This document shows positions 34,493-49,028 of a stretch of DNA of 64,000 nucleotides, piece after piece. Within the stretch, counting starts at the first letter, position 1, and every line of letters starts with the position of its first letter. The position numbers and the translations under genes were made by a program. The notes beneath the pieces were generated by a model. That model was not told the origin of the DNA. It ran no database searches and worked only from the letters and a program-made list of their open reading frames with translations. Location of the stretch: positions 1-64,000 of the forward strand of contig JAVXUO010000377.1 in assembly GCA_033065855.1 (NCBI GenBank). The letters run 5' to 3'. The stretch comes from Escallonia rubra. Taxonomy: Eukaryota > Streptophyta > Magnoliopsida > Escalloniales > Escalloniaceae.

Positions 34493-34494
<2 letters not shown>

Positions 34495-34762
34495 AGCTGA
34501 TCCGTTGAGAGCGTGGGCAAAATAGGAGAAGTTGCAAGCGCGATCTGACCGTACATCCCGAAAGATGGACGGCCCAGATCGTGCCTTTTTCGAAAGTTGT
34601 CAGTCGTCCGCCATACAGTTTGGCGGACGTTTTTTTTTACCAAATTGCCCCTCCGTGCCGTCCCCTAAACTGTATGGCGGAGGACATTAAAGTCCTGATG
34701 GGAGACAGCCAAAAAGACGTCCGTGATACTGTGTATCGGACGTCCCTAGGCTGGCACCTGTC
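34493..34762 (+). repeat. Left TIR of the large MULE
   Basis: It contains three dyads related to GTCCGC...GCGGAC (near 34606, 34665 and 34720). It pairs with 47143-47402. Confidence 0.92.
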
Positions 34763-35052
34763 AGGGCCTGTCCCGTCAGTTTTTTCGGCAATGACGGTTA
34801 TCTTGTCCTTATCTGTCACGTGAACAGTGTCCGCTACACAGTTTAGCGAACGTTATATCCATCCGCGATACTGTATCGTGGACGTAATAGCCATCCGTGA
34901 TACTGTATTGTAGACGTTCAATATACTTTCAAACGACAGTAACTACGGCACTCTTCTCCACTCTCTCTACTCACAAAATTTCTCAGCGGCGTTGGCAAGC
35001 ATACCGGCATAATTCCGTCTTAAGAACACCTTTAATATCCTAAATCGATCAC

Positions 35053-35334
35053 GTAAGTTCACAAAATCTACACTTTTTTTCGTTTGTAATCTTCAGTTGT
35101 GATGAATATTGCGTTTTATATATGTATGTTTTTGTTCTTGTGCAAGCGTTTGTAAAATCCGATTCCGTATATGTATATATATTTATACATATGAGTACAT
35201 ATGCTAACATTGTATGCATCATTCATGTGCTTGCGTTATATGTATTATGCATGTGCTAGCGTCGTATTTTTGCGAGCGATTATCAAAATCCAAAACGTAA
35301 AATCCAAACTGAGAAGGTTTTTCCATAATTTCAG
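35053..35334 (+). other. 5'-UTR intron of the PMD gene
   Basis: A donor GTAAGT at 35053 and an acceptor TTTCAG ending 35334 bracket 282 bp upstream of the ATG at 35344. A CT-rich leader lies before it (34955-35050). A leader intron close to the TIR suggests that the TIR supplies the promoter. Confidence 0.6.
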
Positions 35335-35343
35335 TTGCAAAAA

Positions 35344-37742
35344 ATGGAATTTAACCCTGGACCTGAAGACCCATCCGTGTTATACGACCAAGCCAACCAT
35401 ATCAGTACGCTCATATGGGATGGTGGAGTAAGATACATTATTTATCGACTTTGTTATTCTTACGAACGTTGTATATACCGTTTGTTTTGCTTAAATTGTA
35501 TTTATTAAATCGTAGGAAAGAGAACTTCTCAACACCGTAGAAGTATCTCGCGATATAGTATCGTGGAAACTGAACACCGCCCAGAAGAGGATACCGCGTG
35601 GAATTGGGTTTGGGATTTTCACGCATGGGCAGATATTTCAACAGTTTGACCGGGCCTTGATAGGTGCCCTTGTTGAGAGGTGGAGAAGTGAAATGAATAC
35701 GTTTCACTTCCCGCTCGGAGAGATGACAATTACCCTAGAACATGTAGGGTTCATCTTAGGGTTGCCGGTGACAGGGCGGCCGGTAATTGCTCCTCCGTCA
35801 GAAGCAACGAATGAGAGAACCGCTAGGGACTTCTTAACTTCGATACCCCAGGATAAATTTACCAGTGGTGGTATCAAGTTGGAGTGGTTGGTAGATACCT
35901 ACGGGGTTTTTCCGGAGAACTATACGGGCCGTGACCTTGTGCTGTACACACAAGCCTTCCTCTGGTGCGTGGTGGGGGCAATATTATTCCCAACGACGTC
36001 AAAGAACACGGTCAGCGTGAGATATTTATCGTTGTTGGGTAACCTGACGGAGGTTGGAGATTATGCATGGGGTGCAGCGGTTCTTTTGTATCTGTACCGA
36101 GCATTGCACAAGGCAACGAGGCCCAACTCCAAAGCCATATATGCATGTCTCTCGCTATTGCAGGTATATCATATAAATCCACTACCATTATTGTTTTTTT
36201 TGTTTTTGCTTTTGTTGAATCGACGATATAAATATAATTTGCCCATGTTCTCAGGTGTGGTCTTATGAACACCTTGCTCCCGGTGCACCGACGCGTAGGG
36301 ATGGAACCGATAGAGTGTGGCCTCGGTTGCGTGCTTGGGAGTACAGCCGGAAGAATAGCCACTACCGCAGGAGAGTCGATCCCCATCACAACATCACGTA
36401 CTATCGAGGGGAGTTCGACCGCCTATCTCCGGGCCAATTGCGTTGGGCATCGTACATACGTTTGGCGCGACGGGTAGAAGAGTCGTTCGTCTTCACGCTC
36501 TCCGGGTTGCAGCGCACACCCCTCATCCACTTCGAGGTCGCAGAGTGGCAGCTGCCAGACCGAGCAATGCGCCATTTTGAGTTGGAGCAGGGTTTGCCAG
36601 CCGGTGCCCCAGATATGAGGGTTAACAGGGACCCACCGGATGTCGGGCGGTTTGGCAAGGCCAATGCGCAAGAATTGTGCGCGGCCGAACTAGAGCTCTG
36701 GACTTCTTGGCAGGACACACTGGCGGCCATCGTCTCGGAGCCGGACCCCGTTATCAGCATCGCGGAGTACGATGAGTGGTACTCCCGCATCACGCGGAGG
36801 AGAGTAGCCCCAGTGAACTTTGAACGCGGGGCGAGGTATGCGCCTAGGGGTCAGATCGACGAGCGTATGGCATACAATCTCGTAAGTTGCCCAACTTGTC
36901 TTGAATATAAATGTCTGATTAAAGTTACTTATTTGTTATCTCTTTGGATGTAGGTTAATGCCTCGCTTGCATTCTTCCAGAAGTTGAGTGAGCGGAAGGA
37001 TCTGATGAGCGCAATGGGCGAGGATCTTCGCCAACAGGCTGCTGCACTGGCTATAGGCTGCGGGAATTTTGTGCGGCAAGCATCGGGACAGTCTTCGGTC
37101 GACAGCCCGGGAATGGGTTATACGGGCGGCAGCCCGTATAACGTTGATCCCTCCGGGCAAGCTTCAGGGGTGAGCCAGGGAGTTGGTGGTCCCTCTGTAC
37201 CGGGGATGGGACATGCTCAAGCGTCGTGGGCCGATTACAGCGGCCTGACCTTCAATTTGTTCCCGGAACCCCAACCCCTCTCTCAGAGTCAAGTCACGCA
37301 AGACTGGCCTTACAGTTTCAACGAGGCACTGCCCATTGTCCCGTGGGCGGGACCACTTGGCGGCCCCGAAGGGCAATATCAGCCGGCAGAAGAAATGGTC
37401 GGCGAGCAATATCAGCCGGCCGGGGCCCTTGAAGGCGATTATCAGCCGGCCGGGCCCCCCCAAGAGGATTATCAGTCGGCCTATCCGTTGGTTGGAGGCC
37501 AATTTCTTCCGTTGCTCTTGCCCCCCGGCGGAAGGCAAGAGCAACTGGTCGACCCCCGAGGGCAATATCCGAAAGGGCATCCAGCCAGGCCCCTGAAGCC
37601 GCATAAACATGACCTAAAACAAGCCCGTTATTTTAACAGGCCCCCCCGGACGGAGCGTCGTATGACGTGGATCACCCGCAGACTATGGATTACAATGCCT
37701 CGTGAAAAGAACTGTCCTCGCTGGCGCCGGGAATTTGGTTAG
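35344..37742 (+). CDS. Plant mobile domain (PMD, MAIN-like) protein of the MULE, about 715 aa
   Basis: Four coding exons join in phase 0: 35344-35427, 35516-36163, 36255-36881 and 36954-37742, each with GT-AG borders. The protein has no internal stop. Residues 1-28 match the PMD start ('PGPEDPSVLYDQANHIS'). Then come 'LVERWRSEMNTFHFPLGEMT', 'GFILGLPVTGRPV', 'FLWCVVGAILFPTTSKNTV', 'GDYAWGAAVLLYLYRAL' and 'VWSYEHLAPG', the canonical PMD order (to about residue 450). The C-terminal 260 residues are Gly/Pro/Gln-rich, with four QYQPA-type repeats of about 15 aa at 37370-37485. PMD proteins occur both as host MAIN/MAIL factors acting in silencing and development and inside transposons. The last 35 residues may be a frameshift product: a run of seven C near 37642 moves the frame away from the ULP1 region. 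The original protein may have been a PMD-ULP1 fusion. Confidence 0.8.
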
Positions 37743-38580
37743 ACAACTTTGTCATCTCGAACTACGTGCAAATTCTGAGGCAAAGGAGTAGGGAGCAGCC
37801 TAACTACGGTCCGCGCATTTTTATCGTCGATGCTTACTTTCATGGCATCCTAGTACAAGAGTATAACGACTGGGACAAGGCGAGGAAGCAGGCGAGAAAG
37901 GGAAATGCCCAGCTCCAGTAGAGACCGTCCGCTAACCTACAAGCCTATCTTGCTCGACCGAGTCCAGTGAGTGCAGGTGTGGCGGACGTGTTTCTAATCA
38001 TAGCTATAGTGAATTCTGACTGGTTCTCGGTTTGCTATGAACCGGTAACGAATACCGTATCAGTCCTCGACAGTCTCTACGATGATACCCCCGTGATCAG
38101 TGTGATTGAAATGTACCGAGGCTTAGGCGAGTTGGATGCCATGGTAAGATCATGTTTACTTCTTATTGTAACTTGCATATTATAGAACTGATTAATATTA
38201 TTATGTTCGCTATGTTTAATGTTTAATGCTTATTATGTGTCTCGCAGAGTCTATTTGCTGGAATGGTCAATAGTAAGCGTTGTCGAGAGAACTGAGATAG
38301 TCCAGTGATCCCATCGCACGGGACGCAGCTTGTTTTCCGATTGAAGAGGAGTAGGCCCAAGAAACTTAATTCCTCGGACTGCGGCGTCTTTGTCTGCATG
38401 TACATGGATTACATCTGTCGGTCGGAGAGCCTCAAGAAGACCGTCTGGAGCCAAGAATGCATAGACTGCTTTAGGTATAGGATGGCTTGGCAAATTATCA
38501 ATGGCCGGCCTAGAGCTATTAGATTTGTTGTAAATCCGTGTAACGAGGGGGATCCCGCAGGGGCTGAGGGCCCCAATTGA
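37647..38580 (+). pseudogene. ULP1/C48 cysteine protease, decayed, next to PMD
   Basis: In the frame entered after the C7 run, translation gives 'LSSLAPGIWLDNFVISNYV' (the usual 'L....WL.D..I..Y' entry), 'DVFLIIAIVNSDWFSVCYE' and 'SVLDSLYDD'. After an intron (38144-38247, GTAAGA to CGCAG) comes 'NSSDCGVFVCMYMDYI'. The catalytic Cys (in DCGVF) and Asp (in LDSL) are present, but the His normally found before the Trp (HW) is Asp (DW). Stops lie at 37703-37705, 37919-37921 and 38293-38295. ULP proteases remove SUMO-like modifiers and are a known cargo of a class of MULEs. Here the enzyme is dead twice over, by stops and by the missing His. Confidence 0.8.
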
Positions 38581-38827
38581 CAATGTTTGCGTATAATAAC
38601 ATTTTCCTTGATTTTTTTAATTGTCTTTAAACTTCTTGCCAAATATTGTTGAATGCGATTGATGATTTCATTTGTGTTGATTGAGATGTGATCGTTGTTG
38701 TAATTTTGTTGATTTGATTCAAAGATATCGTTGTGTTGTTGATCTGAGTGTTTGATTTGTTATGTGTGATTTGCTTTGACCAGGGGAAAACAAAGTGTAA
38801 AAACCAAGTGAGACTGTTTCTGTTGGA

Positions 38828-39470
38828 CTGTCCGCTATATAGTATAGCGGACGTAGATCGGGCTAAAAAAAACTAATTGTTGGGGAGGCTTCCTTCTGCT
38901 AGACTGTCCGCTATATAGTATAGCGGACGTACATAGGGCCGGAAAAAAAAAACTAAGTGTTGGGGAGGCTTCCTTCTGCTTGACTGTCCGCTATATAGTA
39001 TAGCGGACGTACATAGGGCCGAAAAAAAAACTAAGTGTTGGGGAGGCTTCCTTCTGCTTGACTGTCCGCTATATAGTATCGCGGACGTACATAGGGCCGA
39101 AAAAAAAAAAACTAAGTGTTGGGGAGGCTTCCTTCTGCTTAACTGTCCGCTATATAGTATAGCGAACGTACATAGGGCCGAAAAAAAAACTAAGGGTTGG
39201 GGAGGCTTCCTTCTGCTTGACTGTCCGCTATATAGTATAGCGGACGTACATAGGGCCGAAAAAAAAAACTAAGTGTTGGGGAGGCAAACTAAGTGTTGGG
39301 GAGGCTTCCTTCTGCTTTATTGTCCGCTATATAGTATATCGGACATAGATAGCGCCGAAAAAAACTAAGTGTTGGGGACAAGACCTTCTACTTCACTGTC
39401 TGCTATATAGTATAGCGGACAGGGCCGGGAAAAAACTAATAAAGTGTTTGGGAGTCTTCCTTCTGCTTGC
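38828..39470. repeat. Array A: eight units of about 78 bp around a dyad
   Basis: Each unit holds a dyad with arms GTCCGCTATA and TATAGCGGAC separated by three bases, then 'cgtacatagggccg', an A-run, 'ctaagtgttggggaggctt' and 'ccttctgctt'. Dyads start at 38830, 38906, 38986, 39064, 39145, 39223, 39322 and 39398. The 39223-39322 interval contains an extra 20-bp duplication. Confidence 0.92.
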
Positions 39471-39477
39471 GAAAAAA

Positions 39478-40240
39478 CTATTCACGTACACTTTAGCGCC
39501 AAATTCACATCTTGTGAAAAATATTGAAATTTTTTTGGTCACTTTTTTTTTGCTCATTGCACCTTAGGCACGCTATATAGCCCATTTCTATGAATTTTGA
39601 CAAAAATCGAGACAAATTATTTTTTTAATTTTCCTATGAAGGGCCTATTCGCGCACATTTTAGTGCCAAATTCATAACTTGCGAAAAATGTTTTTTTTTT
39701 GTCACTTTTTTTTGCTCATTGCACCTTAGGCACGCTATATAGCCCATTTCTATAAATTTCGGCACAAATCGAGACAAATTATTTTTTGGGTTTTTCTATG
39801 AAGGACCTATTCGCGTACACTTTAGCGCCAAATTCATAGCTTGCGAAAAATGTTTTTTTTTTGTCACTTTTTTTGCTCATTGCACCTTAGGCATGCTATA
39901 TAGCCCATTTCAATGAATTTTGGCGAAAATCGAGACAAATTAATTTTTTGATCTTCCTATGAAGGGCCTATTCGCACACACTTTAGCGCCAAATTCATAG
40001 CTTGCGAATTTTTTTTTTGTCACTTTTTTTTTGCTCATTGCACCTTAGGCACGCTAGTTAGCCCATTTCTATGAATTTCGAAGAAAAACGAGACAAATTA
40101 TTTTTTTGGTTTTCCTATGAGTGGCCTATTCGCGCACACTTTAGCGCCAAATTCATAGCTTGCGCAAAATGTTGTAATTTTTTTTGTCACTTTTTTTTGC
40201 TCATTGCACCTTAGGCATACTAGTTAGCCCATTATAGTAT
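39478..40240. repeat. Array B: about 4.7 units of about 160 bp
   Basis: The unit 'cacactttagcgccaaattc' to 'aaatcgagacaaatt' to 'tcctatgaagggcctattcg' restarts near 39484, 39650, 39810, 39970 and 40130. It contains 'ctcattgcaccttaggcacg'. It is unrelated to array A and lacks the GTCCGC dyad. It separates the ULP1 region from the twin-ORF region. Confidence 0.88.
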
Positions 40241-40376
40241 GACGGATGTAGTTAGAAACATAAATTCCCAACATTTTACATGCTTCAAAAGACGGGATTC
40301 GCTAATTAGAATGACATGTGGATAAGTGCCGGTTGGAATGAAATCCTAACATGCAGTAGGAAGATATATATATATA

Positions 40377-40811
40377 TCACTCTTCATTTGACATATACTC
40401 ATCAGATAAGTACTGATCGTTGGTTAAAATATTATTTCTCTCGTTTGATTTGAGCTGCCTCCCACTAGCCTCAGCCATTTCTTCCACAAGTTGAAGCATG
40501 TAAAATCGTTTTCTATGCAGCAACATCCGGTTATTCTCCATACGAATTTGGCGCACAACTTTCTTACACTGCTTATCATTACGCCTCAACATAGTAAGTG
40601 AACGACGTTGCGGCACAGGTGCCCTCAGCGTGGTGAGATCTTGGTGTAGTGCTTCTGATTCCTCAACTCGATATGCCCATTCTCTCCGTAAACCGCAATA
40701 ATACTCTCTCGGGTCCGTGTACTTCACTTCTTTGTAGTCGTCGTTCCTTTCACACAACAACCACACAGTCTCACGTCCCCGCAGACTAGAACTCCCAGGA
40801 ACTCCTGCCAT
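40377..40811 (-). CDS. Unknown MULE accessory ORF (144 aa), twin of 41231-41629
   Basis: An uninterrupted 144-codon frame from ATG 40811. No known domain is recognised. It is charged, with a Tyr/Arg-rich middle ('EYYCGLRREWAYRVEE'), a basic segment likely to form a helix or coiled coil ('VVRQIRMENNRMLLHRKRF') and an acidic end ('YLSDEYMSNEE'). It aligns over about 75 residues with the plus-strand ORF at 41231-41629, sharing W.YR..E.E.L..D, P.P.R, and IR.ENNRM..R..R spacing. The start is backed by a TATA-like element (complement of 40852-40862) about 40 bp upstream. The open frame and the conserved twin argue for a real protein. Function unknown. Confidence 0.6.
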   Translation of the reverse strand: MAGVPGSSSLRGRETVWLLCERNDDYKEVKYTDPREYYCGLRREWAYRVEESEALHQDLTTLRAPVPQRRSLTMLRRNDKQCKKVVRQIRMENNRMLLHRKRFYMLQLVEEMAEASGRQLKSNERNNILTNDQYLSDEYMSNEE

Positions 40812-41230
40812 GTAAACTTAGGCGGTTCTAATACGATGAGCATGGCTAACATATATAAATAAGCCCACACACACATACACAATATATTGGTGTGATAGCT
40901 ACACAATAGTCTGCCCATCTCTGGTGACAAGACAAGTCTCTGGACATTGAAGATGACAATAGTTGGAGACAATAGCATGCCCGTGTCATAAAGTTGACAA
41001 GTCTTTAGTGACAAGACAAGTCTCTTTGGTGAGAAGACAAGTCTCTAGTCTATTGCAGAGGCTTGTCACATTTCATAAAGTTGAACCTGTAGCATCTCAT
41101 AAAGTGGTCCCGTTTCAAAGTATATATAAGTACATGCATTGCACGAAGGGAAAAGGGCATAGAGTGATATACTCCCAATTTCATAACAACTCTGGAAATG
41201 TCATATACTCCACGAGATATTTTTGAAGCA
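40812..41230. promoter_or_regulatory. Candidate bidirectional promoter between the twin ORFs
   Basis: The two related ORFs point away from each other across 419 bp. A TATA-like element for the minus ORF lies at 40852-40862 and one for the plus ORF (TATATAAG) at 41121-41128. Between them GACAAGTCT occurs four times (near 40929, 40997, 41015, 41036), most followed by CT or TT. The repeat could be a shared control element. Only position and sequence support this. Confidence 0.45.
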
Positions 41231-41629
41231 ATGGGTCGTTACTGGGCGGGCGAAGATAAATTTCACTATTCTTTGCGTCCAAGTTTGCGTTACTCATCAA
41301 GCTATGTTAATACATTATGTGCATAATGGTCTTATCGGATGAATGAATATGAGGTCTTAGTAACTGATTCACGGAGCATGAATATACCAATACCTCGACA
41401 AAAGGCAATCAACATGCCTCGAATTACACACATGGAGCTTGAAAGGGCACTGCATCGAATACGTGAAGAAAATAATAGAATGAGAGTTCGTCAAAGTAGG
41501 CATAACTTACGTCGTATGGCACGTGATGCACATGAAGATGGCAACAACAATGAAGCACAAGTATACTGGAACATGAGCTTCGAAGAAGGATCTGTTTCCG
41601 ATGCTCCAGTTTCAGATGAAGATGACTGA
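41231..41629 (+). pseudogene. Unknown MULE accessory ORF, twin of 40377-40811, one stop
   Basis: From ATG 41231 the frame runs 31 codons to a TAA (41324-41326), then continues open to 41629. Translation could also start at ATG 41339 (96 aa). The post-stop part includes 'SYRMNEYEVL', 'IPIPRQKAINMPRI', 'ALHRIREENNRMRVRQSRH' and an acidic end 'SDAPVSDEDD', matching the minus-strand twin in order and spacing. No known domain recognised. It may survive as a 96-aa protein from the internal ATG, or be a decayed copy of its neighbour. Confidence 0.55.
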
Positions 41630-41649
41630 AGATCGAGTTCTTCTAAGGC

Positions 41650-41780
41650 CACAAGGCCTCCGCTTAGGCCAGGGTTCGGGAAGGTCGGAACTAAGTGTCT
41701 GGTCCGTGCCAACCATTTTCTGGTCCAAGTTGCAGACAATGATCTGCACCACTATGACTTGAGATCCTCAGCTGTGCACC
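41650..41780 (+). repeat. Left arm of an internal inverted repeat
   Basis: 'cttaggccagggttcgggaa', 'ggtcggaactaagtgtctgg' and 'gatcctcagct.tgcacctt' pair with the complement at 42468-42592. The loop between the arms contains four GTCCGC-type dyads and the MITE at 41989-42318. Confidence 0.88.
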
Positions 41781-41988
41781 TTTTGTTTGTGTGTGGGTTT
41801 CCGTGGTGCGTGGATGTATTACGATAATACTTCCTCGCTAATCATGTATTGTGCTAGAACTTTCTTTCTGCGGTGCCGTCCGCTTTATAGTATGGCGGAT
41901 TTTTGTAGAAACAGAAAAACTTTCTGCCATGCCGTCTGCTCTACTATATAGTGGATGGCCAAGCAGAAACACAGATGGCCAACCCTTA

Positions 41989-42318
41989 GGCCCCGTACGC
42001 TTACCATATTCGTTTTCTGTTTTTAGCAATGATGATGAAAAATATTCATTTTTTGCGTACTTTTACCATTTTCTGTTTTCGTTTTGGATAAAATTACTCA
42101 AATAGTAACAAAAAACTGAAAACACCTAAAAGGTGTTTTCAGCTTTTTTCACTCAAACTTAACCCAATATAAGAAAAAATAGCTAATTTTTTTTTTTGTG
42201 AAAATGATAAAAGTACATGAACAGATTTTCAAACTGAATATGAAAATCATGAAAATGAAAACAGAAAATGAAAACAGAAAATGAAAACAGAAAATAAATA
42301 TGGTAAGCGTACGGGGCC
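41989..42318. mobile_element. MITE, 330 bp, TIR GGCCCCGTACGCTTACCATA
   Basis: The ends GGCCCCGTACGCTTACCATA and its exact complement bound an AT-rich block with further 'gaaaacagaaaat' repeats. Flanks are TTA (left) and TTT (right), so a PIF/Harbinger-type 3-bp TSD is possible but imperfect. It sits inside the loop of the MULE's internal inverted repeat. Confidence 0.75.
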
Positions 42319-42467
42319 TTTGTTTTTTCTCTCCTAGGTCCGCTATATAGTATAGCGGACAGCCCTGCAGGGAGAGAGTCTCCAACTTAGTTTTTTTTCT
42401 CCTATCTATGTCCGCTATATAGTATAGCGGACAGCCCCGCAGAATACATGACAAAGCAGAAAGGTGC

Positions 42468-42592
42468 AGAGCTGAGGATCTTACGTCACAGTGGGGCAGA
42501 TCATTGTCTGCAACTTGGACCAGAAAATGGTTGGCACAAACCAGACACTTAGTTCCGACCTTCCCGAACCCCGGCCTAAGCGGATGCCTTAT
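42468..42592 (-). repeat. Right arm of the internal inverted repeat
   Basis: Complementary to 41650-41780 ('gcagacaatgatctg' occurs in one arm and 'cagatcattgtctgc' in the other). Together they form a foldback of about 940 bp. Confidence 0.88.
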
Positions 42593-42611
42593 GTCCGCTA
42601 TATAGTAGAGC

Positions 42612-42733
42612 TAGACGTTGTAGCGTAATGCAGTTTTAATAAGTTGGCGCCCAAAGACTTGTTTTAGCGACATTATAGCGTAATGCTGTTTTAATAAATT
42701 GGCGGCCCGAAGACTTGTTTTGGCAACAGAATC
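42612..42733. repeat. 60-bp tandem duplication
   Basis: 'tagcgtaatgc.gttttaat' to 'gaagacttgttttggc' occurs twice in a row. Confidence 0.8.
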
Positions 42734-42892
42734 AACAATCTCAATATCGATAAACAATAAATAACGTACGATTCACAATCAACGATCGTCCGCTATCGAG
42801 GGAATCTCAAACGACACAATTAAGCACAATTAAGCGAGAAAAAATTTGGAAACATAATGAGCAAGAAAATAAATTAATTTATTAATTATAAA

Positions 42893-43361
42893 TTAGGGTT
42901 CACATTGGGGGAAATAAAATTTTTCACAAGCGCTCCGATCAAAGATTACAACTTGAAAATCCCACCACCCAAGGTGTTCAAACACTACAAAGTCCCCGAG
43001 TTTGAGGCCATGCTGGCGCACGAAGACGTTCCAACCCTCTGCGAATTACTTTTTTTGGGGTCGGTCGGGCTTCAGCTTGATTTCAACCTGCCATGTCCCC
43101 TTGCTGCTATATAATCTCGCACTCTCATGAATTGTTGTAAATTGATTGGTCAAGGCTTCCGGTATGTCCTAACAAACACAATACAAAAAATAGGTTAGTT
43201 TTTAACCAAAAGATCAAACTTTTAACACACGAAAATAAAGAGAAAGAGGGATGGCCTACAAGTTCATTCTCAAACCTCGGCATCATGACTTTGAAAAAGT
43301 GTTTGCCTGTCAGGTGCAAGTTGCCAATAAAATCGTAGGTGGTCTCCGATCCAGAAGCCAT
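42893..43361 (-). pseudogene. B3 DNA-binding domain gene inside the MULE, one nonsense codon
   Basis: Exon 1 (43361-43260, 34 codons) ends at a GT donor and exon 2 starts at 43168 after a CTAG-type acceptor (AG at 43170-43169), in phase 0. Exon 1 gives 'TGKHFFKVMMPRFENEL' (B3 strand 1, 'FFKV..P'). Exon 2 gives 'DIPEALTNQF', 'WQVEIKLKP', then 'FAEGWNVFVRQHGLKLGDFV', 'FEHLG' and 'FQVVIFDRSACEK', the classic B3 order including 'GW..F...H.L..GD...F'. The stop codon is TAA at 42893-42895. A TAA within exon 2 falls where B3 proteins often have Tyr, just before FAEGW. The protein would be about 125 aa, a single B3 domain (REM-like). B3 domains bind DNA as plant transcription factors. I know of no standard MULE that carries one, so this is either a capture or a feature of this lineage. 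Confidence 0.8.
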
Positions 43362-43529
43362 CGAGGTCGACGTTGAGGGGAGGATGGTTTATCGCCGGAG
43401 TTGTGGGTCACCGGAGATGTGGGCCGCCGTAGATGGGGTAGTGGCATCGGTTAGATGTTCGAGACGGAGAGAGTGCCCTAAGCGGACTGATAACAGCTGA
43501 TTGCCCGATATGATTAATATATATAATAG

Positions 43530-43905
43530 GGTAGAGTTATCCGCTATATTGTATAGCGGACATAAAAGAATACCAAAAGTTTTTCTGCGATGGCGTCCCC
43601 TACATTGTATAGCGGACATAAAAGAATACCAAAAGTTTTTTTACGATGGCGTCCGCTACATTGTATAGCGGACATAAAAGAATACCAAAAGTTTTTCTGC
43701 GATGACGTCCGCTAGATTGTATAGCGGACATAAAAGAAGACCAAAATTTTTTCTACGGTGACGTCCGCTAGATTGTATAGCGGACATAAAAGAAGACCAA
43801 ATTTTTTTTTGCGATTGCGTTCGCTAGATTGTATAGCGGACATAAAAGATAACCAAAAAAATTAAATTTGCGATGCTGTCCGCTATATTGTATAGCGGAC
43901 GGGGC
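43530..43905. repeat. Array C: seven units of about 57 bp around the dyad
   Basis: Units contain arms GTCCGCTA and TAGCGGAC (here with GATTG or TATTG centres), then 'ataaaagaataccaaaag' and 'tttttctgcgatg'. Dyads lie near 43539, 43595, 43653, 43707, 43762, 43818 and 43877. The array lies between the B3 gene's 5' side and the transposase 3' end. Confidence 0.92.
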
Positions 43906-44044
43906 TTACAAAAAACAAAAAAAAAATTAAGACTTTAGATTTGATTTGATGGCCTCTCATAGGTCCATTTTTAAAAAATTCCAGTATACGGTCAAAAAAT
44001 TATCCCTCCAAAAATTATTACAAATGTCAAACTTATACAAAAAA

Positions 44045-46338
44045 TTAAAGGTCCACTGCAGCTTGTTCGTCCTCATCTTCGGCGTCACCTTCTTCCCCGT
44101 CTTGCAAACCCCCTGAAGTTATCCCCAGTGCCTTGTAATGGTTCCGCTTGTCGTGGTCGGTCATTTTGTTGTACAATGCACACCTTTGCAGCTTTTTAGG
44201 TTGAGTTGCCCTTTCAATAGAGCTTTTCATCCGCGTAGATCTCTTGCGGCCTTTCGTTTGCGATATAATTGGATACAACGGTCGGATATCATTGTCGTCT
44301 TCCTCCCCGGCTCGTCATCTTCTGATCCCGTCGTAGGCTCGGTGTCAATCGCATTGGTGACTGAAGCTGCTTCCAACTGGTCGACGATGGGCTCTTGCTG
44401 CTGAGCTACCTCGAGGAGATGTTTATAACCGACCATTGAAGCAGCAGCCTTTACGGACAAACGGGTGAAACTCGTCACCAGATGATTATACCGCAACGTC
44501 TCCGATTCTTCAAAGTCAGTATACGGGTGCTCCGGAAAGGCAATGGTACCGTGCAACCTGTTAGCACCTTTCGTCCACCGTGGCAAGACGTATTTATCGG
44601 GGATTGTCCTGATATTCTTCTGGGTGAAAAAGCGCAGAATGTGTCTACACAGGATGCCATGGAACTCAAACTTCTTGCAAACACATGTCACCGAGTCCGT
44701 CAATGTGTCGTGGCTCACCGTATACATTCTGCGCAGCTTCTCAGGAACGAGGTCATTCACGAGCGAATAAACCTTGTACTCACGCGTAGACTTTTCTGCC
44801 ACCTTGTTTATACAGTACCGTCCCGATTTCTGCAGCTCTACTTGGTATAGCAAGAAGATCTCCTTCGTATAGACTTTGGCACCGTTCAGCTCCAGCGGGG
44901 TCTCAAGCAACCTTCTCCTCTGTTTGTACGTGGTTGCAAAGTCTGCAGCCCTTTCTTTCACGAACAACGACGCAACCGCTTTCTGTGCGGATGTGACGAA
45001 ACTCTTCAAATTGGTAGCTGTACCCACGTAACTATCGAACGTGGCATTCATAGATTCACTCCTGCCCGTCGTTTTCATGCCCGCAGAAAAATGCCTCCTC
45101 GTGTAAACGCCAATCCATTGCTCTTTGAGCTCGTACAAGTGCTGGAGCCACCCGTTGTCTTGCAATGAGTAATCCTCAACAAGCTTTTCCCACCTCTCCT
45201 CAAATTCCTCAATCGTTAACGACTTGCTAACGCACGTGTCAAAATCCTGTTTAAAGTCTGGAAACTTTGCGTACACGTGATGCAAACGTTCGGGGTATTT
45301 GTTGCTTATGTGCCAAGTGCACAAGTTGTGTCGAGTATCTGGGAAGACGGTGGCAATAGCCTTCTTCATTGCCAAATCTTGATCGGTGATGATAACGTTG
45401 GGTGCTTTGAAGTTCATGGCTTCCAGCCACACACTAAACAACCATTCAAAAGAACTCTCGCTCTCGTCCCTTAACAAGGCGAACCCGAACAGGATGGAGT
45501 GATAATGATGATTGACCCCCGTGAAAGGGGCAAACGGCATCGAGTACTTGTTGGTACGGTATGTGGTGTCGAAAGTCACGACATCCCCAAAATGCTTATA
45601 AGCAAGCCTCGAACGACCGTCGACCCAAAAAATTGTGCTAACTCGATGCTCGTCGTCAAGTTTATAATCGAAGGTAAACTGCGGGTCCTCCATCTGCATC
45701 CGCTTCAATAGGCTCATTGTGGCTTGAGCATCATTGAGGTCATACGCGGCTCGTCTATGGGTTCGGACCGCGTTACGAACGTCTGTCGTGTTAAAGTTTA
45801 AATTTTGAATTCCCCCGGCCTGTTCAGCAAGAACATTAATCATGTCGGTAGGTCCTAGCCGCGCATCGCTCATTGTGTGAATGAGGCTCCTCGCGACCTT
45901 ACCCATCTTCTTGTGTTGATGCATCTGACTCACCTTAGAAGGGGTTACTAACGGGTGATTGTGTGCCAGTTCCAGGCTGGTAATAAGCCAATGATCTTGC
46001 TTGGGTTTATAGCTTACGAACATCTTGACCTGGCAATTCGTTCGCGCAAAGAAGTCCCGTCTTCTGCGCGAATATCCTATTTCGTCATCACTGTCATCGT
46101 TGCCTACGCGTGTCTCATTTTGCACTGGGTTTCTGCCCCTATGGCACTCGTATAAGCGAGAGCATATCTTTCTCGTTACGTTGCTCGTTCTTGAAGTCTT
46201 TATTCTAATGCCAAATCCAACCCTCAATGAATACGCTCGGAAACATTCTCCAGCTTCCTCCAATGTTTGAAAGGTTCGTCCTAGATACGAATCACTAGCA
46301 TCTACGGGGGTGTTGGAGCTCGACACAAAATCAGACAT
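44045..46338 (-). CDS. MULE transposase, FAR1 type (703 aa; original tail shifted out of frame)
   Basis: An uninterrupted 703-codon frame runs from ATG 46338 to the stop at 44227-44229. Residues about 20-130 are a FAR1-type WRKY-GCM1 zinc-binding domain ('FRAYSLRVGFGIRIKTSR', 'HWLITSLELAHNHPL'). The MULE catalytic core spans about 250-430: D257 in 'VVTFDTTY', D319 in 'VIITDQDLAMKKA', C340-x2-H343 in 'LCTWH', E428 in 'GRSESMN'. A SWIM finger follows at 552-566 (CVC-x9-C-R-H). Downstream, in another frame to 44045, sequence continues as the usual FAR1 tail ('TKGRKRSTRMKSS', then 'RCALYNKMTDHDKRNHY'), where two of the four expected zinc ligands are Tyr and His. So the C-terminal tail has been lost by a frameshift near 44290, but all catalytic parts are open. 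It would cut and rejoin TIR ends. Transcription starts from the right TIR side. Confidence 0.92.
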
Positions 46339-46352
46339 TGTGAAACAGTTCC

Positions 46353-46798
46353 CTATATGTAGAAATATAGACTACGCTTAACAATCAAATGACATTTTCA
46401 ACTGAAAATATTACCAAAAAATTATCTTGACGAATAGACAAATTTAAGATGACAAATATACCATATACATAATCTCAAAAGTCTCCCATTTTGCTAATTA
46501 TAGATTTATTGAACATAACAAATTAAAATTACTAAGAGCGTTAGACAAATTCATCATGCCAAAATACAACAAAGCCAAAATGCGACAAACGTATCTCAAA
46601 AAATTCAAAAGGCAGTAGGATAGATGTGCCGAAGTTAGCGCCCCTCAAAAAAATCAAAATTAACTACAATAAACTTCTTTAAAGTTAACAAATTAATTTC
46701 TAGAACATCATCAAAAATCTATATTTTTTTGCCCAAAAAAAAATATATATACTTTATCAGTCAATCCACCCAGAAAATATTTGAGATCAGAAACTTAC
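46353..46798 (-). other. 5'-UTR intron of the MULE transposase gene
   Basis: Minus-strand donor GTAAGT begins at 46798 and a likely acceptor ATAG ends at 46353, 14 bp before the ATG at 46338. The upstream leader (46860-46799) lies just inside the TIR. This mirrors the leader intron of the PMD gene at the other end. Confidence 0.5.
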
Positions 46799-47142
46799 CT
46801 TGCTTGACTGAAGAAGATTGAAGCAAGTTTTACTCGAAGCTTGAGGGGAGCCAAAAATGGAAGCAAGTGAATCCGAAAGAGAAGAAAATTTTGCCGAAAG
46901 AGCTGAGAATCAGGGAACTTTGGGGTATAAGGGAAAAGCCTGTCCTCGATACTGTATAGCGGAAATTATTCCCGACACTCTGACACTTGCAGAAATAAAG
47001 TCCCGGAAAGTCAGGTCTTGACAGGTGTCAGCCTAGGCGAGGTCCGATACACTGTATAGTGGATACCTTTTTTGTTGTCTCGTGTCAGGAAATCAATTTC
47101 GTCCTGGATAAAGTATAGCGTACGGTGTGGAGGGGCAAAAAG

Positions 47143-47398
47143 GACAGGTGTCAGCTTAGGGACGTCCGGTACACAGTATCGCGGACGTCTTTTTGGCTGT
47201 CTCCCATCAGGACTTTAATGTCCTCCGCCATACAATTTAAGGGACGGCGCGGAGGGGCAATTTGGTAAAAAACCCATCCGCCAAACTGTATGGCGGACGA
47301 CTGACAGCTTTCGAAAACGGCGCGATCTGGGCCGTCCATATTTCGGGATGGACAGTCAGATCGCGCTTGCAACTTTTCCTATTTTGCCCACGCTCTCA

Positions 47399-47402
<4 letters not shown>
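47143..47402 (-). repeat. Right TIR of the large MULE
   Basis: Inverted copy of 34493-34762. Further diverged dyads continue inward to about 46940. The terminal 7 bases present on the left (GGAGCTG) are missing here. Confidence 0.92.
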
Positions 47403-47447: not shown

Positions 47448-47450
<3 letters not shown>

Positions 47451-47582
47451 AGCTGATCCATTGCTAGTGCTAGCAGAGTTACTAACGCTGTTTTGTCGTC
47501 CGCTACATAATGTAGCGGACGATAATTTACGTCCGCTACATTATGTAGCGGACCTGCTAGCGCTAGCAATGGATCAGCTCCC
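47448..47582. mobile_element. 135-bp palindromic mini-MULE in a TA tract
   Basis: The ends GGGAGCTGATCCATTGCTAG and its complement form a 29-bp TIR with one mismatch, flanked on both sides by (TA)n. The interior is little more than two inverted copies of the dyad with arms GTCCGCTACAT and ATGTAGCGGAC. The terminal GGAGCTGATCC is shared with the large MULE at 34493. It has no coding capacity. Confidence 0.88.
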
Positions 47583-47604
47583 ATATATATATATATATAT
47601 ATAT
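47583..47604. repeat. (TA)n microsatellite
   Basis: About 11 TA units between the mini-element and the Pack-MULE. Confidence 0.95.
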
Positions 47605-49025
47605 GATCTGTTGAGAGCGCTAGCAAAATAGGATAAGTTGCTAGCGCGATCTGTGGACGATCCAGATCTTTTTTTTTGCATTTTTTTTTAAGTACGTCCG
47701 CTACATTATGTAGCGAACAGTTTTTGGACAAAAATACCCTCTAGCTCCATCCGCTACATTGTGTAGCGGACGAGTTGGCATTACTTTTTCTCTCATTCTC
47801 TCTCCTTTCAGTCATTATTTTTCTGACATGTTTGTCTCTCTCTCTCTCCCCCCCCCCCTTCTGTCATCAATGCTCGTGTCCTTCTCTCTCATTTCTCTTT
47901 CTCTCAAGAATCGCCAAGATCAAATTCTGGAGCTCAACCTTCATCGTCGAAATGGAACTGGGCGACGACGTCTTTTGTTGTTGCTGATATAACTGAAAAT
48001 TCTCCGACTGCCTCCGTTGATTAGCATGCGACCGCTTTATCGCCGCCATGAAGGAATTTGAAATCGGTAGCTCATCCACGCGCTGCGGCGAGGATGGCAG
48101 CCGGTCAAGTGACACGCCCAAACACAGCTCAAGGGCCTTGAATAGGACGCGCGACGGGTACGTGTTGTTCCTCGCGCGGCCGCATGCTTCCCGCAACAGC
48201 GAGGAGGGAAGCGAAAGCAGAGCCGACATCGTGTGGAGCGACATCGTCTGCGCGTGACACTGGCGGCGCGCCACGACGACGACTTCTTCCAGGGCTCAAT
48301 CGGCCTCCTGCGTCAGGTATTGCCTCGTTATGCTGACCAACGTCGGCGTCTACACAACTTGTACAAAAAAACTGGAATAATAAGCGTTTGTATCCCATGA
48401 AGGGGGTATAAATAAGTTAATGGGGAAATGAATGAAGGGCATCTGGTATTCTTGTTCATTGACTTGCTTGGGAATGGCCCATCAAAGGGGATGTTTAGGT
48501 GTCAGTCTGTTCACCTCTGAGGAGATAACAGTTGCCAAGAATTTGCTTCGAGTTGACTCAGTAGGGCCTGAGACTATTGTTTTGCTCTTCGCCAGAACTT
48601 TGCAAGGATTTCAGTTTACTTCCTAAACTCGATCGTTCGAGGAAATCCAGTGTCCGGGGCAATTACCTTCGTACCTGCGAAGGATTCGGCTTTAATGCAT
48701 TGATGAGAGAAAGAGAAATGAGAGAGAAGGACACGAGCATTGATGACAGAAATGGGAGAGATAGAGAGAGAGAGACAAACATGTAAAAAAATTAATGACT
48801 GGAAGGAGAGAGAATGAGAGAAAAAGTAATGCCAACTCGTCCGCTACACAATGTAGCGGATGGAGCTGGAGGGTATTTTTATCCAAAAATTGTCCGCTAC
48901 ATAATGCAGCGGACGTACTTAAAAAAATGCAAAAAAAAGACCTGGATCGTCCACAGATCGCGCGTGAACGGTCAGATCGCGCTAGCAACTTATCCTATTT
49001 TACTAGCGCTCTCAACGTATCAGCT

Positions 49026-49028
<3 letters not shown>
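47605..49028. mobile_element. Pack-MULE carrying an SMXL gene fragment
   Basis: Long inverted repeats at 47605-47907 and 48704-49028 pair through 'GTTGAGAGCGCTAG', 'AAAATAGGATAAGTTGCTAG', two GTCCGCTACAT dyads, 'ggcattactttttctctcat' and 'gctcgtgtccttctctctca'. The right end reads GTGAGCTGATACGTTGAG on the minus strand and abuts (TA)n. The left end begins at GATCTGTTGAG after (TA)n, so its outermost bases are lost. The left arm also lacks about 20 bp present in the right. The interior (47906-48703) carries captured host sequence and no transposase. Termini and dyads tie it to the large MULE. Confidence 0.88.
47906..48349 (-). pseudogene. Captured 5' fragment of an SMXL6/7/8 (D53-type) gene
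   Basis: Read on the minus strand from 48349, the fragment gives 'PTLVSITRQYLTQEAD', a stop, 'ALEEVVVVARRQCHAQTMSL', 'HTMSALLSLPSSLLREACGR', 'FKALELCLGVSLDRLPSS', 'ISNSFMAAIKRSHANQRRQS', and 'MKVELQNLILAIL'. This is the N-terminal Clp-N repeat region of SMAX1-like proteins. The 'MPT.V', 'SLDRLPSS' and 'NSLMAAIKRSQANQRR' type wording fits the SMXL6/7/8 (D53) branch, which represses strigolactone responses. The start codon is ACG in place of ATG (48349-48347) and a TGA falls 16 codons in. Homology ends exactly at the TIR border (47906), as expected for capture. Confidence 0.88.

Follow-up and report, generated by a model that had tools for sequence, protein, structure and literature searches.

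We analysed a 64,000-nucleotide stretch of Escallonia rubra DNA (GenBank assembly GCA_033065855.1, contig JAVXUO010000377.1, positions 1 to 64,000; hereafter the window), in which an initial annotation had recognised a 12.9-kb Mutator-like element (MULE) with an unusual set of genes at 34493-47402. By its transposase and its terminal inverted repeats (TIRs) this element is a MULE, and it represents a damaged member of a Mutator-superfamily family that is abundant in E. rubra, was recently amplified there and inserts into (TA)n microsatellites. Complete members are two-sided, with PMD, linker and ULP1 sequences reading inward from one TIR and a FAR1-type transposase gene reading inward from the other. 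The transposase has a small B3 gene as its neighbour, two divergent, paralogous small open reading frames (the twin ORFs) are often present, and a 23-bp palindrome fills the noncoding stretches. The transposase, B3, PMD, ULP1 and the palindromes form the family core, and the twin ORFs are an optional module. With moderate confidence we propose that the palindrome would be a docking site of one or more element-encoded proteins, serving both transposition and a VANC-like anti-silencing function, of which the anti-silencing use is held less surely than the transposition use.

Recurrence of the gene set in other copies

The genome searched comprised 566,129,122 bases in 3,222 contigs. Four near-full-length close copies, E1 (contig C1121), E2 (C2524), E3 (C1285) and E4 (C2355), were colinear with the window copy (W) nearly throughout, some of them with eroded TIR ends or internal deletions. 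E1 and E2 carry broken genes too; in E3 and E4 all six coding sets compared are free of stops, with PMD and ULP1 mutually out of frame. Two divergent copies, F1 (C1, 12 kb) and F2 (C9, 9.8 kb), also lie between TIRs in (TA)n and contain palindromes, both being decayed and interrupted by stops. F1 carries all six genes (its transposase matching at ~91% identity, in three pieces), with the twin pair inverted relative to B3, and F2 carries PMD, ULP1, B3 and the transposase, no twin ORFs being detected there at E 1e-4. At two further loci (L059 and L060) only a long palindrome array was present between B3 and ULP1.

The recurrence search proposed in the initial annotation was thus run, and PMD, ULP1 and B3 were found in the same order in other copies with these TIRs. 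The genes of maize MuDR read inward from two TIRs, and the MuDR-like inward orientation that had been described for the window holds in seven full copies (the window, E1-E4, F1 and F2). The twin ORFs, which had been counted as part of the element, proved not to be universal in view of F2, L059 and L060.

In all of the best 30 of the 63 transposase matches (window included), at least 80% of the B3 gene was present beside the transposase, and a right-TIR match was found in 28 of these 30 loci, the other two ending at contig ends. Among the 63 listed transposases, ORF1 was located at the right side and strand in 45, PMD in 30 and both in 24; in the controls, ORF1 was found 0 times on the wrong strand and 0 times on the wrong side, and PMD once and 0 times, respectively. 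ORF1 and PMD were rightly placed with respect to each other in 72 of 150 listed matches, versus 3 and 0 in the controls. As these placement counts were taken from best-scoring matches, with at least 150 matches each for PMD and ORF1 (those of ORF1 at 92-100% identity), they are lower bounds, and misses are no proof of absence. In the first 90 rows of the B3 list, ORF1 or the transposase was rightly placed in 51 of 61 matches with the short B3 frame (91 amino acids) and in 4 of 29 with the long one (165-187 amino acids). B3 in 30 of 30 loci and ORF1 in 45 of 63, against 0 of 63 in the controls, show that the cargo is no local accident, and its chance assembly was likewise rejected.

Terminal inverted repeats, target and short derivatives

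The TIR pair given in the initial annotation was confirmed, with a length of ~260 bp and arm identities of 89% (34500-34650/47254-47404) and 95% (34633-34762/47143-47272), and it recurs elsewhere at similar spacing. The left TIR gave at least 40 near-full genome matches at 94% identity or above, the window's own included. TA-rich runs, defined as at least seven TATA/ATAT words in 32 bp, adjoin 60 of the 62 element ends scanned, some of which belong to small neighbouring elements. Since the ends sit in (TA)n, a target site duplication of 8-11 bp is indistinguishable from the repeat. A 7.2-kb TIR pair at C1761 was considered as a mid-size element and rejected, being two separate ~1-kb elements. 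All 10 short derivatives read (L003, L004, L045-L050 and two in L051) retain the same make-up, namely a TIR, a piece of internal array 1 and a TIR.

A rigid 23-bp palindrome in TIRs and internal arrays

The most striking feature of the element, absent from the initial annotation, is the palindrome GTCCGC-N11-GCGGAC, with 19,579 exact copies in the genome, compared with 2 for the pattern read backwards. Allowing up to two mismatches, 33 sites were found in the window, 27 of them inside the element, versus a mean of 0.6 in 20 mononucleotide shuffles of the 64 kb; one two-mismatch site, inside the transposase gene, is probably due to chance. With up to one mismatch the window holds 28 sites at a spacer of 11 and 0 at any other spacer from 0 to 20. 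Across seven element-bearing stretches (~120 kb), GCGGAC follows GTCCGC after exactly 11 bases at 184 of 266 sites and at no more than 2 for any other spacing up to 59, a set that includes related copies and so shows rigidity rather than independent events. Spacer positions 4 and 8 are fixed as A and T in 59 of 59 distinct spacers. Besides the TIRs and their immediate surroundings, the palindromes occupy internal noncoding arrays, which differ in copy number from one element copy to another.

The observed/expected CpG ratio is 0.96-1.03 in the seven element-bearing stretches, old copies included, compared with 0.74 outside the element in the window and 0.65 in the pooled flanks; a ratio near 1 would fit, weakly, low methylation of the element.

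Five ~160-bp tandem units beside array 1 (39478-40233) are shortened or lost in C1121, C1285 and C2355. Locus L052 (C9:42400-46400) contains inverted-repeat elements with many TACATTATGTA-type palindromes and no match to any of the six element proteins; as these belong to a different TIR family, the palindrome is common beyond the TIR family of the window.

PMD and ULP1, probably parts of one ancestral gene

The open, spliced PMD gene of the initial annotation was borne out by two Pfam matches (E 3e-43 and 2e-14), an open reading frame in the window copy, and exon joins that, by eye, are the same in the annotated E. rubra protein P0001. The PMD protein of C1285 is 92% identical to an E. rubra protein, the next three matches being from E. 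rubra or E. herrerae, and its best match not labelled Escallonia is only 41% identical. The same protein (L041) also matches DUF7745 above the cutoff (29 bits versus 26, E 7.5e-7), hinting that the DUF7745 and PMD Pfam families may be related. One window PMD exon gave a DUF1985 match below the cutoff (E 0.015), which was absent with the spliced PMD of C1285.

The ULP1 protease that had been proposed is present as a Pfam-recognisable fragment, although in the window copy its catalytic His and Gln are replaced by Asp and Lys, three stops interrupt it, and its frame differs from that of PMD. The catalytic His, Asp, Gln and Cys are all kept in the six other copies. Both domains had been listed as separate genes; they are better read as parts of one gene, and judging from their sequences PMD and ULP1 are probably the remnants of a single ancestral PMD-linker-ULP1 gene. 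In C1121, PMD and ULP1 share one frame except for one stop, and the frame shifts deeper inside ULP1.

We also considered whether PMD had recently been captured from a host MAIL2 gene, which was unsupported: in a tree of 46 rows (45 of 121 proteins plus the query), in which branches were long and neither PMD-A nor PMD-B rows were labelled, the Escallonia PMDs stand apart from the host MAIL2 genes and are not nested among them.

Transposase, B3 and twin ORFs

The transposase matches FAR1 (8e-14), MULE (PF10551, 2e-32) and SWIM (3e-5) in Pfam. D257, D319 and E428, which from known motifs we take to be the DDE residues, are present in five of six copies, the F1 match having a gap at the first. The domains and these presumed residues of the enzyme, which had been described as catalytically complete, were confirmed; its tail is frameshifted, giving 703 amino acids from the ATG in the window versus 765 in copies such as C1121 and C1455. 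A run of G residues numbers 4 G in the window copy; this length occurs in 2 of the 26 loci with the run (window included), and 5 G in the other 24; since the assembly was built from Nanopore reads and then polished with Illumina, as stated in the available part of its description (PMC10759652), such single-base homopolymer differences between copies may be errors. Copies L011 and L027 have a similar short tail through a different change, and 57 of the 63 listed transposases have no stop inside the matched part. The transposase DNA (window 44227-46338) is 97-100% identical to that of four copies, intergenic DNA being mostly lower, which could reflect either gene exchange between copies or strong constraint.

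For the B3 gene, the predicted DNA-binding domain was recovered in the window as a fragment after the stop (Pfam 6e-7; 1.9e-9 for the B3 of C1285), and the in-frame stop of the window copy tells against an intact gene there. Its intron position is the same in F2. A protein database search by shared 5-residue words, in which absence is weak evidence, returned one B3 homologue, from Escallonia herrerae (77%). The relationship proposed between the twin ORFs was supported by BLASTP (E 1e-12, 28% identity between ORF2 of C1121 and window ORF1), indicating that they are paralogues. ORF2 has no stop in C1121, C1285 and C2355 and one in C2524; no homologue of ORF2 was found elsewhere at E <= 0.01 by the same word search, which is weak evidence and was made for ORF2, not ORF1.

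Splice sites of the gene models are kept in five of five aligned copies, one B3 acceptor (C2524) excepted, and the paired leader introns that had been predicted are both supported in this way (Table 1). The window copy is thus damaged, with lesions in ULP1 (two catalytic residues and three stops), in B3 and ORF2 (a single stop in each) and in the transposase tail. It has lost ULP1 function, and probably that of B3 and ORF2 as well, and would depend on copies elsewhere.

Table 1. Features of the element in the window (positions in the 64,000-nucleotide stretch)
Feature	Position	Strand	Remarks
Left TIR	34493..34762	+	Starts GGAGCTGATCC; directly against (TA)n run; three palindromes
Candidate leader intron of PMD gene	35053..35334	+	GTAAGT/AG kept in 5/5 aligned copies
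PMD gene	35344..37742	+	Exons 35344-35427, 35516-36163, 36255-36881, 36954-37742; last exon is a low-complexity linker
Decayed ULP1 (Peptidase_C48) part	37743..38580	+	Pfam 1.6e-5 in window, 1.8e-15 in copy C1285
Internal array 1	38830..39420	.	Eight palindromes, 76-99 bp apart; part kept in short derivatives
Twin ORF1	40377..40811	-	144 amino acids from ATG; no Pfam match
Twin ORF2	41198..41629	+	Divergent from ORF1; TAA at 41324-41326 in window copy
B3 gene	42894..43361	-	Exon 1 43260-43361; exon 2 42894-43169 with one in-frame stop
Internal array 2	43539..43900	.	Seven palindromes, 56-59 bp apart
FAR1/MULE/SWIM transposase	44227..46338	-	Shorter, frameshifted tail compared with 765-amino-acid form
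Candidate leader intron of transposase gene	46353..46798	-	Splice signals kept in 5/5 aligned copies
Right TIR	47143..47402	-	Against (TA)n; outermost ~8 bp of other copies missing

Selection and divergence

Ratios of nonsynonymous to synonymous substitution rates (dN/dS) were estimated by the Nei-Gojobori method, exon by exon, with 200 codon bootstraps and with codons containing stops or gaps skipped, for five between-family pairs (E3-F1, E3-F2, F1-F2, E1-F1 and E1-F2) and for the six close-family pairs of W, E1, E2 and E3. Between families, dN/dS was 0.30-0.45 for the transposase and 0.52-0.63 for PMD, all five intervals lying below 1 for both genes. ORF2 gave 0.28 [0.14-0.61] in E3-F1 and 0.39 [0.14-1.04] in E1-F1. 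In the close family, three pairs excluded 1 for ORF1 (range 0.22-1.20). The two-sided architecture, which the initial annotation had called designed, is from these ratios better described as kept in part by selection.

Relative to E3, the divergent copies are 89-92% identical in the transposase, 81-86% in PMD (amino acids, to C1285), 59-64% in ULP1 and 57-64% in B3, the B3 of F1 being 64% identical to that of E3. B3 and ULP1 are more diverged in silent sites too, so the history of these modules may be older or involve exchange.

The palindrome as a proposed docking site, and the alternatives

Given an element that encodes several DNA-binding proteins, the simplest reading of its rigid, symmetric and multiply repeated site is a protein docking site. 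The palindrome would be bound by at least one element-encoded DNA-binding protein, the candidates being the transposase, B3 and the PMD-ULP1 protein. For excision and integration, the transposase would be drawn to the dense palindromes of the TIRs, and the internal arrays, which the short derivatives also retain, would recruit B3 and/or the PMD-ULP1 protein, holding the element in an active chromatin state, possibly with demethylation, as VANC does; ULP1 would strip SUMO from silencing factors at the arrays. The VANC-like layout of the arrays and the ULP1-bearing accessory gene make such an anti-silencing role plausible. In favour of the proposal as a whole count the recurrence of the gene order, dN/dS below 1 for the transposase and PMD between families and for ORF2 in E3-F1, the catalytic ULP1 residues kept in six other copies, the abundance and fixed spacing of the palindrome, its retention in the short derivatives, the (TA)n target and the CpG ratio, besides the VANC precedent.

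Several results weigh against this proposal. Between families, every dN/dS interval includes 1 for B3 (0.70-0.93; 0.70 [0.42-1.08] versus F1) and for ULP1 (0.78-1.12), as do those of ORF1 (E3-F1 0.63 [0.29-1.19], E1-F1 0.69). In the close family, no pair excludes 1 for ULP1 (0.72-0.99), B3 has too few silent changes, and only E2-E3 excludes 1 for PMD (0.50-1.08, with W-E1 at 1.08), whose linker exon reaches 2.24 in W-E1; two transposase pairs, W-E1 and W-E2, include 1 (range 0.17-0.51), and ORF2 ranges from 0.16 to 1.75, with three pairs excluding 1 and W-E2, at 1.75, not doing so. A claim of selection on ULP1 or B3 was consequently dropped, all of their intervals including 1. The frames of PMD and ULP1 disagree in W, E2, E3 and E4 (exon D of F1 was not located, and the comparison gave no result line for F2), so a fused protein is deduced rather than seen. 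Elsewhere in the window the CpG ratio also reaches ~1, and values of 0.89 and 0.78 were obtained for two individual flanks. The shared make-up of the 10 short derivatives may go back to a single founder and does not represent ten events.

The transposase alone could also account for the palindrome. It is possible, if rather unlikely, that the palindrome is a plain transposase recognition site multiplied by tandem-repeat slippage, with PMD-ULP1, B3 and the twin ORFs doing otherwise or little. As would be expected of a transposase site, palindromes are found in and around the TIRs and in each of the short derivatives read, and among the genes for which both F1 and F2 gave data the transposase has the lowest between-family dN/dS. 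Plant MULE transposases are, however, usually described with few TIR sites, and the internal arrays are kilobases from the ends and adjoin B3 and ULP1 even in loci without intervening twin ORFs.

A more specific form of the docking proposal, which we regard as unlikely and put forward only tentatively, is that PMD-ULP1 and B3 would be guided by the palindrome to the element's own arrays and would counter MAIN/MAIL-type and SUMO-linked silencing there, constituting a second, independent, non-VANC anti-silencing system.

Passive carriage of host DNA in Pack-MULE style, the cargo being kept only through recent amplification of the family, appears improbable. Many copies are near-identical, B3 and ULP1 are the most diverged genes, with dN/dS not excluding 1 and with breaks in some copies, and a SMAX1-like stretch is present in a neighbouring element of the window (see below), all of which would fit such carriage. 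The simple form of this explanation is nevertheless at odds with the presence of the same genes in the divergent F1 and F2, with and without the twin ORFs, with PMD and transposase dN/dS below 1 between families, with cargo genes that contain introns and conserved splice sites, and with the position of the Escallonia PMDs outside the host MAIL2 genes in the long-branched tree. Least probable of all, we consider it very unlikely that the palindromes act as nucleic-acid hairpins (a small-RNA source or cruciform) instead of protein sites: the arms are complementary to each other, and of the five inner spacer pairs two show excess complementarity (37/59, shuffle mean 30.3, maximum 38; 35/59, mean 24.5, maximum 36; 1000 shuffles), but the other three equal their shuffled means (48, 59 and 28 of 59), symmetry is equally expected of a dimeric protein, and related copies inflate the complementarity counts.

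Neighbouring elements in the window

A third TIR element with palindromes is present at 47604-49028 (arms 47604-47653/48973-49022, 94%, and 47672-47911/48699-48938, 91%). Its ORF at 47870-48295 (minus strand) matches SMAX1 (PDB 9kkx_D, E 3e-17), with no Pfam match at E 1, and the element thus resembles a Pack-MULE-like capture of a host gene fragment. A 135-bp element at 47448-47582, with 29-bp inverted ends and two palindromes, is parted from both neighbours only by (TA)n, so that three elements stand in a row, as in the arrays of unrelated elements described for SaTar in the available part of the report (PMC5907723). A ~330-bp insert at 41988-42319 with 36-bp inverted ends (94%), absent from C1121 and C2524, looks like a miniature inverted-repeat transposable element.

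Comparison with known systems and significance

PMD genes, ULP1 domains and a preference for (TA)n have each been described in MULEs before, and the comparisons below refer to the available portions of the cited reports. VANDAL21, VANDAL6 and KIU of Arabidopsis are similarly MULEs with a transposase and accessory genes, one with ULP1, and the VANDALs likewise have noncoding tandem repeats built of short motifs, differing in repeat number from copy to copy (PMC5735166, PMC10398659, PMC13317346). VANC proteins bind these motifs and remove DNA methylation, and the motif arrays expand, contract and change together (PMC5735166, PMC10398659). In contrast to the Escallonia element, with its long TIRs and insertion in (TA)n, VANDALs are called non-TIR MULEs (PMC13317346); VANC motifs are 8-9 bp long, with no palindromes mentioned in those portions, whereas the Escallonia motif is a 23-bp palindrome, and VANC is not termed a PMD or B3 protein there. 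As to the VANC gene family, only the below-cutoff DUF1985 match of one window PMD exon bears on it.

A PMD gene inside a MULE is also found in grasses and Amborella, and host PMD-C genes were captured by MULEs; in the grass and Amborella elements PMD-C is described as fused with the transposase, whereas the Escallonia PMD adjoins ULP1 in a separate gene and in an asterid host (PMC5418596). ULP1 domains occur within MULEs of melon, rice and grapevine, and the available description names no PMD, B3 or palindrome array in them (PMC13317346). MuTAnT of Medicago and SaTar of guayule and rice are MULEs in (TA)n microsatellites with short derivatives (PMC4486113, PMC5907723), but AutoMuTAnT, unlike the Escallonia element, is 4,873 bp with one transposase gene and, in that account, no accessory genes described (PMC4486113). 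MuDR of maize has two genes, mudrA and mudrB (PMC4486113); its accessory genes differ from those of the Escallonia element, whose transposase is of FAR1 type. Pack-MULEs carry captured fragments without a transposase of their own, in contrast to this family, which has its own transposase and a cargo common to divergent relatives. A MULE combining B3 with PMD or ULP1 was not met with in the literature searched, which lacked most subscription papers.

The PMD proteins MAIN and MAIL1 act in transposon silencing (PMC5418596), PMD proteins silence Arabidopsis transposons, and transposon PMDs have been proposed as counter-silencers (PMC8616336). The Escallonia family offers a clean test of that proposal, combining high copy number, copies with open genes, PMD with ULP1, B3, and ~20,000 rigid palindromes. 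If an element protein binds the palindrome, this would help to explain how a family this large escapes silencing and, if true, the family would be a second case, beside VANC, of a transposon with a sequence-specific regulator and its own tandem binding arrays.

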